Position numbers and translations under genes: made by a program
Notes under the pieces: generated by a model
What the model was told of the DNA's origin: nothing
The model's input: only the letters and a program-made list of their open reading frames with translations
The model's database searches: none
Part shown: in pieces, positions 49,850-53,851 of the stretch
How positions within the stretch are numbered: the stretch's first letter is position 1
Layout of the letters: every line of letters begins with the position of its first letter
Assembly: GCF_003431325.1 (NCBI RefSeq)
Contig: NZ_CP010515.1
Coordinates: 1-64,000 of the forward strand
Source: Acidilobus sp. 7A
Lineage (GTDB): Archaea; Thermoproteota; Thermoprotei_A; Sulfolobales; Acidilobaceae
Reading direction: 5' to 3'
DNA: 64,000 nucleotides

Positions 49850-50193
49850 CTCGTATTCACAACTTTATACATATTAGCCCACTATTTAAAGGTTCCATAT
49901 AGTGGGTTTTATTATGTTCTGTCCCACTTATATCCTAGTTAGAGTTAAATATGTTTATATATATATTATAATTTAGAGTTACTTTCGATAGCCCTTAGGA
50001 CCAGGCCCTCCCGTAAAGGTCCTTTGAGCAGGGGGCCCTGAGGAGTCCCCTTCACAACGCCGTGAGCGTAGCCCTCCAGCCCCTTCCCCCTCATGCCTGA
50101 GGCCAGGAGCCTCCTCTGCGCTTCAACTCGCCTTGCAGAAGGCGTTTAACCCCTCCTTGGTAGAGGTCTCTAGACGCGAGGGCGACGCCGACG
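49850..50193. other. Gap with AT-rich tract and a 51-bp duplicated gene fragment
   Basis: 49910-49975 is very AT-rich (TTTATATATATATTATAATT). 50059-50109 is identical over 51 bp to 54157-54207, inside the 3' part of the amidohydrolase gene. It starts with GCCGTGAGCGTAGCCCTC and ends with GGCCAGGAG. The rest shows no gene. A TATA-like GTTTAACC (50151) may serve the next ORF. Confidence 0.55.
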
Positions 50194-50658
50194 ATGGGCG
50201 ACTGTGAAGAGCTTTACGAGAGGCTTGCCGAGACGAGGGAGAGAGTTAAGGACATTGAGAGTTCACTCACGGAGATATTAGACGATCTTCAGAAGGTGGC
50301 CAGCTCTGAGGTAGACCTTATATCATGCTTGAAGTCTCATGCCCCCGACTACTTCTCATGGCTTGATGGGAGTCCTGCGGACGGCCTTCAGCTCAACGTT
50401 CAGCTTAACGGCGACCCCGCCGCACAGGCCGGCGCGGGGCCTGAAGACTGCACGAGGGTACGTCAAGCCCTCATACAGGCCACCTCCAGAGAGGCCTCGC
50501 TCTCGTTCCAGATGGCTGAGGTCGGCGCCGTCATTAGGAACGAGGTGATAAGGCTGTCCGGCCTAGCGGCGCTCTGCAGGCACTACGAGCCTGAGCGATC
50601 TGAGAGGGTCAGCAAGGAGACGTTATACCCCCTTATCTCTAAGTACCTCTCCCTATAG
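50194..50658 (+). CDS. Coiled-coil protein of unknown function
   Basis: 154 residues, mostly helical. The N-terminal ELYERLAETRERVKDIESSL looks like a coiled coil; a less ordered middle contains GDPAAQAGAGPEDC; the C-terminus is helical again. Four cysteines are scattered. ATG start. It precedes the MutS-like pair by 300 bp in the same direction, so a functional link is possible but not shown. I do not recognise the family. Confidence 0.55.
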   Translation: MGDCEELYERLAETRERVKDIESSLTEILDDLQKVASSEVDLISCLKSHAPDYFSWLDGSPADGLQLNVQLNGDPAAQAGAGPEDCTRVRQALIQATSREASLSFQMAEVGAVIRNEVIRLSGLAALCRHYEPERSERVSKETLYPLISKYLSL

Positions 50659-50965
50659 CTCGCGGGTGCGCCCAGGCGTCAGAAGGCCTCGACCTGGCTC
50701 AGCGGGCTCCGCGCGGCTTAAACCTGTGCCGCGGTTAACGCTTACCTCTTCGCCATCACAAAGGCGGGAAGCCCGCAGTGAAGAGCAGGAGGTCAGCTTT
50801 CTGGCGACCCTGACGTCGTTGGTTCAATAAGGCGAGCGCTTTTAAGGGCCCCGCTTATCAAGGGCACAGGCGACGCCGATTGGGGGTACGGGGCTTTACC
50901 TGCTGGGCTCAAGGGGGTCAAAGGCTAACGAGAGGGTCCTCTGGGACCTGAGAATTGAGGAGCTA
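50659..50965. other. Gap upstream of the MutS-like pair
   Basis: AAGGCGGGAAGCCCGC (about 50761-50776) and GCAGGAGGTCAG (about 50785-50796) look like a degraded family A TnpB right end. A TATA-like CTTTTAAGG (about 50839-50847) probably drives the MutS-like genes. From about 50879 the reading frame of the first MutS-like protein is already open and looks coding. Confidence 0.4.
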
Positions 50966-52360
50966 GTGGATGATATTTTGGGTAAGGAGAAGGATCAGCT
51001 TCTGGCAGACATCTTTAAGGAGCCGCTCACGGACAAGGAGGTCATTGCGTTTAGGCAGAGGGTGTTCGAGGACCTTATTGACGAGAGGGCTTACACCATA
51101 GTGAGGGGCTTCGTAGAGAGCATTAAGGAGGTCAGCAGGCTGCTGAGCCTAGAGGCCGAGGCTTACGAGGAGTTCAAGTACGGCCTTCACATTGACGCAG
51201 CCCTAACTTACGTGAACGCCCTAGAGGCGACGTTGAACCTAGTGCGAGGCCTGAACGTGAAGTCTGAAGGCATCGCCAGCTTTATCAGTTACCTTGAAGG
51301 CCTGGTCCAGGGCAAGGAGTTTCAGGCCCTAAAGGGGTTGGCGTACGAGGCGAAGGCAGCCAGGGACAAAATAAAGGTTAGGGTAAGCGTGGACGGGAAC
51401 AGGGTAAGGGTCACAGGTGACGGCGGCGAGGATCTATCTTCAAGGGTCGAGCAGCTGTTCTCAAGGTTTAAAGGACAGCAGGTTCGTCAGATCAGGTTCA
51501 CGGGCAGCCGCGAGCAGACAACCCACGTGCACGCTATGATATTAAGGGGCATCTACACGATCTTCAAGGAAGAGTTTGATGTCATGAGAAGGCTGAGGGA
51601 CGAGTTCCCCAACATACTGGATGAGGGCGTTAAGAACTTCGCTAAGGAGTTCGAGTTCTACATTAAGTACATCGAGTACATGAGGGACATAGAGTCCAAG
51701 GGGTACAAGTTTTCAATACCACAGTTCACGGAGGACGGTTCGATTCACGTCAAAGGCTTCTATAGCATGTTGTTGGCTAGGAGGAGCACCGCCGTGACTA
51801 ATGACATTCACGCCTCCGGCGACAGGAGGGTTTTCATAATAACTGGCGTGAACGGCGGAGGGAAAACAACTTTTGCAATTACCTTCGGCCAGCTGGCGTT
51901 CTTAGCCTCAATAGGCGTGCCCGTCCCAGCCGAGGAGGCCAGGGTGCCCCTGTTTTCTAACATAATTACAGCCTTCCCGGTTGAGGAGGACAGGCTGGAG
52001 AGCCTAAGCAGGCTCGAGGAGGACATAGTAAGGGCAGTCAACATATTAAAGGCGGCTGACAGCAGGACGCTGGTCATAGTCAATGAGCTCTTCTCCACCA
52101 CTACGTCAGACGAGGGCTTTGAGCTCGCGAGGCGCTTCGTAAGTGAAATAGCTAGCAGGGGCTCATACCTCATCTACGTCACCTTCATCACTAAGATAGC
52201 CACGCTTGAGAACGTGATCAGCCTCGTGGCGCAGGTACAGGACGGGAGGCCGACCTTCAAGATAGTGGAGGGAGGCCCTCCGTCCAGCTACATGGCTGTC
52301 CAGATAGCCGCAAGGCACAGGCTGCTTTACGAGGATGTTAGGGGCCACGCCGGACGGTGA
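50966..52360 (+). CDS. MutS-like ATPase A
   Basis: 464 residues. The C-terminal ATPase has IITGVNGGGKTTFAITFGQL (Walker A, about residues 289-308) and TLVIVNELFSTTTSDEGF (Walker B, about 369-386). The helical lever and core region of MutS domains III/IV precedes it. The mismatch-recognition domain I is absent. Walker B reads NE instead of DE, as in MutS-related side families. The coding frame stays open upstream to about 50879 (ERVLWDLRIEELVD, like MutS core proteins). The real start may therefore be an unusual codon near there. It forms an operon with MutS-like B (6 nt gap). Confidence 0.82.
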   Translation: MDDILGKEKDQLLADIFKEPLTDKEVIAFRQRVFEDLIDERAYTIVRGFVESIKEVSRLLSLEAEAYEEFKYGLHIDAALTYVNALEATLNLVRGLNVKSEGIASFISYLEGLVQGKEFQALKGLAYEAKAARDKIKVRVSVDGNRVRVTGDGGEDLSSRVEQLFSRFKGQQVRQIRFTGSREQTTHVHAMILRGIYTIFKEEFDVMRRLRDEFPNILDEGVKNFAKEFEFYIKYIEYMRDIESKGYKFSIPQFTEDGSIHVKGFYSMLLARRSTAVTNDIHASGDRRVFIITGVNGGGKTTFAITFGQLAFLASIGVPVPAEEARVPLFSNIITAFPVEEDRLESLSRLEEDIVRAVNILKAADSRTLVIVNELFSTTTSDEGFELARRFVSEIASRGSYLIYVTFITKIATLENVISLVAQVQDGRPTFKIVEGGPPSSYMAVQIAARHRLLYEDVRGHAGR

Positions 52361-52366
52361 GCCCCA

Positions 52367-53851
52367 GTGATAGAGTTCGACCTCTTGAGGGTAGGCGACG
52401 TCCCTGAGGCGAAGGACAAGGAGGACCTGGTGAAGGACCTGGAGCTGGGGAAGATACTGGATGCCGTAGCCCAAAAGGACGAGCTTATTAGGGGCGTATG
52501 GAGCCACGTGCTCCTCCTCTCTGGCGCGGACGTAGAGTCCATAAGGTACAGGCAGGAGGCCGTCAAGGACGCCATTCAGAACAGGGACGTCGTTGTAGAG
52601 CTGTACAGGTTCACAGGGGACGTCATAACAAGGACTGAGAGGGCGGCGTTCCTCGTGACTTATGACAACCCAGAGCTAGTGGTCCTCGAGACAGCGGCCG
52701 GAATGAGGGTGATGATAGACGCCTTTAAGGACCTAAAGGGCATCCTCAGCAGGGCAAGCTTCTCCTCCCAGGCCTTCCAAGGGCTGGTGAACACGATAAG
52801 GGAGAACGTGGACGAAAACTTTATAGCGTCTGCAAAGGAGCTGCTGAGCTTTTTTGACATCAGGAACAACACGCTGGAGTTCTCAGTAAAGCTCGGCGCG
52901 CATAACACCTTAGTTGACCCGGTAGTTCTGGCCCCCAAGAAGGAGGGCGGCGTAATAAGGAAGCTGTTTAACAGGGAGAGCGCCTATGAGTTTAGGCTGG
53001 ACCCCCACGATGAAAGAGGGGCGGAGATCCTAGGGGACATAAGGAAGTGGGTTCTCGCCGGCTTAGCGCCGACCATGCTGAACGCCTACGAGCACCTGCT
53101 GCAGTTCTTTAAGACCTTGAACGAGCAGCTGGCATTCTTTGTGGGTGCCATAAACCTTCACGACCTCTTCCAGAGGCTTGAGTTGCCCTTAGCCTACCCT
53201 GAGATCTCCGAGGGCACGCTGTCGTTCAGGGACCTGCACTGCCTCTCCCTCGCGATTTCGCTTAACAGGAGGCCTGTCCCGAACTCCCTGGAGACCCGTA
53301 ACGTTAGCGCGTTCATAATAACGGGCGCCAACAGGGGCGGCAAGACTACGTTCCTGAGGTCGGTAGGCCAGGCGATACTGCTGGCGAGGGCCGGGGTCTT
53401 CGTGCCGGCCAGCAGGCTGGCGCTGCCGTCGGCCGGGGCCCCCCACACGCACTTCCAGAGGGAGGAGGAGAGGACGATGTCCTACGGGAAGTTCGAGGAG
53501 GAGGTGATAAGGTTCAGGAAGCTGGTTGACCTAGTGAGGCCTGGGGACTTCGTCCTAATGAATGAGAGCTTCTCAACCACTAACCAGGTTGAGGCGTCGG
53601 AGGTAGCTAAGCAGGTCGTGTCGGCCCTAGTGGACAGCGGGGTGACCGTCTTCTACGTCACGTTCCTGCAGGACTTCATACACCACTTCGTCAAGGAGTA
53701 TGGTGACAGGGTAGTCCTCCTAACGCCTGAGAGGCTGAAGGACGGAACCAGGACCTTCAGGCTGGTGCGGGGCTCCGTTCAGCCAGGTTACGCGCTTGAT
53801 ATATGGGATAAGCTCTTTAAGCGCGAAAGCAGTGCAGCGAAAGCCCTCTAG
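52367..53851 (+). CDS. MutS-like ATPase B
   Basis: 494 residues, homologous in layout to the preceding gene but only distantly similar. Walker A is IITGANRGGKTTFLRSVGQA (about residues 320-339), and Walker B is DFVLMNESFSTTNQVEASEV, again NE. VFYVTFLQDFIHHF resembles the switch/His region of MutS. It lacks the N-terminal mismatch-binding domain and the Smr nuclease domain. Two dissimilar MutS-like subunits in tandem suggest a heterodimeric DNA-acting ATPase. The role is unknown: repair, recombination or genome defence. Confidence 0.82.
   Translation: MIEFDLLRVGDVPEAKDKEDLVKDLELGKILDAVAQKDELIRGVWSHVLLLSGADVESIRYRQEAVKDAIQNRDVVVELYRFTGDVITRTERAAFLVTYDNPELVVLETAAGMRVMIDAFKDLKGILSRASFSSQAFQGLVNTIRENVDENFIASAKELLSFFDIRNNTLEFSVKLGAHNTLVDPVVLAPKKEGGVIRKLFNRESAYEFRLDPHDERGAEILGDIRKWVLAGLAPTMLNAYEHLLQFFKTLNEQLAFFVGAINLHDLFQRLELPLAYPEISEGTLSFRDLHCLSLAISLNRRPVPNSLETRNVSAFIITGANRGGKTTFLRSVGQAILLARAGVFVPASRLALPSAGAPHTHFQREEERTMSYGKFEEEVIRFRKLVDLVRPGDFVLMNESFSTTNQVEASEVAKQVVSALVDSGVTVFYVTFLQDFIHHFVKEYGDRVVLLTPERLKDGTRTFRLVRGSVQPGYALDIWDKLFKRESSAAKAL

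Follow-up and report, generated by a model that had tools for sequence, protein, structure and literature searches.

A MutS4A/MutS4B gene pair in the archaeon Acidilobus sp. 7A and the probable tie of its family to the fluoride response

Introduction

MutS4 is an already named but hardly characterised subfamily of MutS proteins. With reference to Lin et al. 2007, Kim et al. 2017 (PMC5742357) describe it as MutS4A and MutS4B encoded by adjacent genes in which the stop codon of A overlaps the start codon of B, and present these proteins as the first mycobacterial MutS homologues to be found. The genes lie there in an island of enolase, NADH-dehydrogenase, hydrogenase and mutS4 genes, and M. smegmatis carrying the MutS4 operon showed more recombination and longer tracts, a gain-of-function result in a foreign host that comes from this single paper (PMC5742357). 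Weinberg et al. 2010 (PMC2864571) found the crcB motif, an RNA whose ligand was then unknown, before genes annotated as "DNA repair (mutS)", and an operon of Enterobacter cloacae FRM is proven to act in fluoride resistance, with no mutS reported in it (PMC5533749).

Here we analyse a pair of mutS-like genes from Acidilobus sp. 7A that lies in a stretch of 64,000 nucleotides (positions 1 to 64,000 of contig NZ_CP010515.1; hereafter the window), and compare it with these and other described systems.

Results

The pair consists of mutS4A (subunit A; 50879..52360, plus strand; about 490 aa) and mutS4B (subunit B; 52367..53851, plus strand; 494 aa), two open reading frames that lie head to tail and each encode a MutS core plus ATPase domain (Pfam MutS_V at 5.8e-16 and 7.6e-12, respectively). 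MutS_III is matched weakly and in A only (Pfam), and no Pfam or NCBIfam model for domain I, domain II (connector) or Smr matches either protein. AlphaFold models of A and B (pLDDT 84.2 and 82.5) resemble the folds of MutS2, MutS and Msh2/Msh3, and the original prediction of tandem, dissimilar MutS core-plus-ATPase proteins lacking both the mismatch domain and Smr is borne out by the Pfam matches, the domain searches and these folds. The two are the sole MutS_V proteins of this 1.54-Mb single-contig genome, and comparison with the same-genus copy reveals purifying selection on both (dN 0.117 and dS 0.73 for A, dN 0.112 and dS 0.62 for B; dN/dS about 0.16 and 0.18, respectively).

The Walker A motif reads GVNGGGKTT in subunit A (51845..51871, plus strand), where it occupies invariant columns in the alignment of A relatives, and GANRGGKTT in subunit B (53324..53350, plus strand) in the alignment of B relatives. 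As predicted, the Walker B acidic pair is NE instead of DE in the sequence and alignment of both window proteins (52082..52087 in A and 53561..53566 in B, plus strand), and the same holds for 118/121 A relatives and 88/118 B relatives, whereas each of the 23 other MutS ORFs compared has DE; these counts include some genes twice.

The gene bounds first proposed hold for both open reading frames except at the start of mutS4A, which is uncertain: frame reading on the plus strand gives ATT at 50879 and the first canonical start, GTG, only at 50966. Comparison with relatives finds the frame open and conserved even upstream of 50879, and starting at GTG 50966 would remove the conserved N-terminus; the same-genus copy of mutS4A has GTG as its start codon. 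mutS4B begins 6 nt beyond the stop of mutS4A, unlike in most relatives, where A and B overlap by 4 nt as they do in the same-genus copy, and the NTGA found at the stop of A in 108/116 pair records of relatives fits such a stop/start overlap. The 154-aa gene at 50194-50658, which had been listed with the pair, does precede it; on this comparison it is a lineage-specific gene outside the mutS4 unit, because the same-genus locus (L033) lacks it and it has no family match. An 11-mer, GGCGACGCCGA, occurs at ~50178-50188 and again at ~50868-50878 of the window, just ahead of this gene and of the apparent mutS4A start.

An alignment of A, searched against GTDB genomes, recovered relatives from Thermoplasmata, Marsarchaeota, Crenarchaeota, Actinomycetota, Acidobacteriota, Bacillota, Thermotogota and others. 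B follows A in 77/79 distant loci, the remaining two being contig ends, and this co-occurrence agrees with the predicted heteromeric pair, the subunits being found together rather than mostly alone. Full-length A and B copies reach profile scores of ~280-794 bits against at most 102 bits for MutS1, MutS2 and KamC proteins, and each subunit forms a single clade in a maximum-likelihood tree (support 98 for A and 99 for B). Both clades hold pairs from archaea and bacteria, including mycobacterial and other plasmid pairs, and the plasmid pair of M. branderi falls inside both; the window pair is sister to the pairs of two EvPrim MAGs (L114 and L116).

Like the described MutS4A/MutS4B, the window pair comprises two adjacent MutS genes for proteins of ~500 aa in the order A-B, with an ATPase domain and free of domain I, domain II and Smr according to Pfam and NCBIfam. 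The tree groups it with the mycobacterial pair, which stands in as a proxy for the sequences of Lin et al. 2007. It differs in being archaeal and in having a 6-nt gap in place of the stop/start overlap, which we treat as a usual rather than a strict signature of the subfamily. Because the layout matches that given by Kim et al. 2017 and the mycobacterial pair sits in both clades, we file the window pair almost without reservation as the MutS4A and MutS4B of an Acidilobaceae archaeon. Tree and gene order show the two proteins to be orthologues of a widespread and almost always paired MutS subfamily. The phylogeny thus places in a named, though hardly characterised, subfamily what had been billed as the strongest candidate in the window for an undescribed system, and that billing falls away.

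Three further observations concern these loci. Primers for M. yongonense from Kim et al. 2017 had no match above chance level in the collected loci. Actinomycete MAGs carry tandem mutS4 sets arranged A-B-A-B (L082:4466-10972) or A-B-A (L072:4484-9482), and a 127-aa mutS4A remnant (L049:2793-3176, genome G101), whose surroundings are syntenic with those of the intact pair in L040, marks a lost pair.

Other MutS families were compared and set aside. MutS1 of mismatch repair needs domain I and MutL; the window pair has no domain I, and a search for MutL-type PF01119 found none in 229 genomes of the class while being positive in 11/14 control genomes. Mismatch repair by the pair is therefore unlikely. 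MutS2/RqcU resembles the pair in combining core and ATPase without domains I and II, but is a single long gene with Smr and a DE Walker B that falls in a separate clade, and the window proteins score 88.5 and 37.7 bits on NCBIfam TIGR01069 against a cut-off of 400 and carry no Smr. The first NCBIfam lead was KamC (NF052383, named lysine 5,6-aminomutase reactivase), likewise a MutS-like ATPase of ~500 aa. The window pair scores only 71 and 60 bits on this model against a cut-off of 300, whereas MutS2-like proteins reach ~190-237 bits, about three times as much, so that the match reflects the shared ATPase fold. No Lys-AminoMut_A (PF09043, lysine 5,6-aminomutase) was found in 25 relatives, in a run whose control was silent and with a model shown to work separately, and a link to B12 enzymes was rejected since PF02310 proteins are present whether or not a genome has the pair. 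Genomes of one family, f8 (L022-L030, L224, L225), encode a distinct MutS protein of ~710 aa whose branch is very long (3.5).

The upstream regions of mutS4A in relatives point to a quite different context. In 20/50 MutS4-bearing genomes, a fluoride riboswitch (RF01734) that reaches the Rfam gathering score stands directly before mutS4A on the same strand. With a model built from Rfam hits, the riboswitch lies at most 207 nt upstream of mutS4A in 38/79 loci compared to 1.3 expected under uniform placement of all 77 hits, though some of these hits seeded the model and the Rfam count is the cleaner of the two. The linkage is found in archaea as well as in at least five bacterial phyla and is also seen on plasmids beside fluoride genes, with the pairs on M. 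branderi, Alicyclobacillus, Klebsiella and Burkholderia plasmids having the riboswitch within the operon itself or just ahead. Closer to the window pair, the riboswitch lies no more than 16 nt from the A match both in the sister clade (L114, L116) and in a genome of its own crenarchaeal subclade (G110, the same as L034/L128), and in all four pair-bearing genomes of the class with any RF01734 (G006, G007, G034 and G110) it comes immediately before mutS4A. In five bacterial genomes with additional MutS-type genes, the listed riboswitch hits are not near those genes. Because the fluoride riboswitch precedes the pair in many bacteria and archaea, this arrangement shows a mutS4 operon that is, by its predicted regulation, organised for induction by fluoride in these organisms.

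Relatives of the pair directly downstream of this RNA fit the crcB motif regulon (RF01734; PMC2864571), although the window copy lacks the RNA and PMC2864571 names neither the subfamily nor the ligand. Apart from an unrelated plasmid survey, a full-text literature search returned no paper in which fluoride, crcB and MutS are brought together; an earlier description in Baker 2012 is possible. Two back-to-back fluoride riboswitches on opposite strands, apparently serving divergent operons, adjoin mutS4A in four loci (L067, L076, L083, L094), and in a family of the same order as the window genome (f9; L230-L237) RF01734 precedes genes for membrane proteins resembling formate-hydrogenlyase or complex-I subunits rather than mutS.

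About half of the relatives have no detectable riboswitch near A. Together with its absence from the window and with the M. smegmatis recombination assay (PMC5742357), this would suit a MutS4 clamp for recombination or anti-recombination without any special tie to fluoride, with the riboswitch as a lineage-specific add-on and the window pair engaged in general DNA work. A linkage that spans archaea, at least five bacterial phyla and plasmids beside fluoride genes is hard to see as an add-on, and we regard this explanation as decidedly unlikely.

The neighbours of the plasmid pairs speak to the same theme. These pairs lie among genes for crcB, eno, uspA, phosphoglycerate mutase (gpmA), pyrophosphatase, an antiporter, CLC and NuoH/hydrogenase, a gene set that is that of the fluoride-resistance operon of Enterobacter cloacae FRM (PMC5533749), in which no mutS is reported, and that resembles the mycobacterial island of Kim et al. 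2017 (PMC5742357). No such genes stand beside the window pair. Across the class, CrcB occurs in 23/229 genomes, none of them with a complete pair where ~1.6 would be expected (small numbers), and CLC genes occur in 144/229 genomes, including that of the window, and are too common to inform. Patchy distribution and the presence of some pairs on plasmids could also be read as signs of a defence system or anti-invader complex, as had been suggested along with a linkage to nucleases. PADLOC and the neighbour surveys gave no match of note, no nuclease partner and no recurring defence neighbours, and the recurring elements are instead the fluoride riboswitch and fluoride-resistance genes, leaving a defence role highly improbable.

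The window pair itself lacks these fluoride features. RF01734 is absent upstream of its mutS4A and from the whole genome, no degenerate riboswitch was found upstream of mutS4A, CrcB is missing from the genome, and no gene adjoining the pair has a fluoride annotation. Within crenarchaea, the pair has no conserved neighbours beyond close relatives. A TATA-like box, CTTTTAAGG, read from the sequence at 50839..50847 (plus strand), is placed ~30 nt upstream of the apparent A start, which points to a 5' end that is short or leaderless and leaves no space for a riboswitch. The riboswitch may have been lost in this lineage or become undetectable, with the pair probably expressed from a short leader, and we infer a fluoride role of the window pair by analogy with its relatives.

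Discussion

At the level of the family, the evidence argues strongly for a role of MutS4 in the fluoride response, which we hold to be very probable. Judging from regulation and gene context in relatives, MutS4 pairs probably contribute to survival under fluoride and not to mismatch correction. As our best explanation of the window pair, to which we give a little better than even chances, we propose that A and B form a heterodimeric MutS clamp that serves fluoride tolerance, probably by acting on branched DNA. A heterodimeric clamp is likely in view of the near-strict pairing, the dissimilar subunits and the fold, and A and B would form a ring-like ATPase with two unlike ATP sites. This clamp would more probably bind branched DNA or DNA at stalled replication, and would support the cell while fluoride poisons its phosphoryl-transfer enzymes. 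We place action on branched DNA under fluoride stress first because the MutS4 operon raised and lengthened recombination in M. smegmatis (PMC5742357). DNA binding is not evident from the sequence, since the clamp region does not carry a consistently positive net charge; granted a fluoride role, we still consider DNA a reasonably likely target in preference to protein.

The same charge pattern would suit the main rival, a protein remodeller for fluoride stress, that is, a MutS-fold ATPase that releases enzymes or ribosomes trapped by metal fluoride, by analogy with KamC or with MutS2 on collided ribosomes. The riboswitch and the islands fit such an activity equally well, the co-regulated genes encode exporters and spare copies of fluoride-inhibited enzymes (PMC5533749), and MutS-fold proteins with targets other than DNA are known (PMC12292046; the name of NF052383). 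Yet the pair is no relative of KamC (71 and 60 bits against ~190-237 for MutS2-like proteins), and the sole experiment points to recombination (PMC5742357), so that we think a remodeller unlikely. A bolder version of the fluoride-tolerance clamp, which we offer as a tentative and rather doubtful idea, is that MutS4A/B forms a dedicated fluoride-response complex in bacteria and archaea whose Asn-for-Asp exchange in Walker B would keep the ATPase working while Mg-fluoride traps other phosphoryl-transfer enzymes.

MutS4 has been a name without clear function since 2007, and the link to the fluoride riboswitch described here spans two domains of life. If our reading is true, it would add a layer of fluoride tolerance beyond exporters and spare enzymes, would reveal a MutS complex that serves ion stress instead of mismatch repair, and would account for the "mutS" noted beside the crcB RNA motif in 2010.
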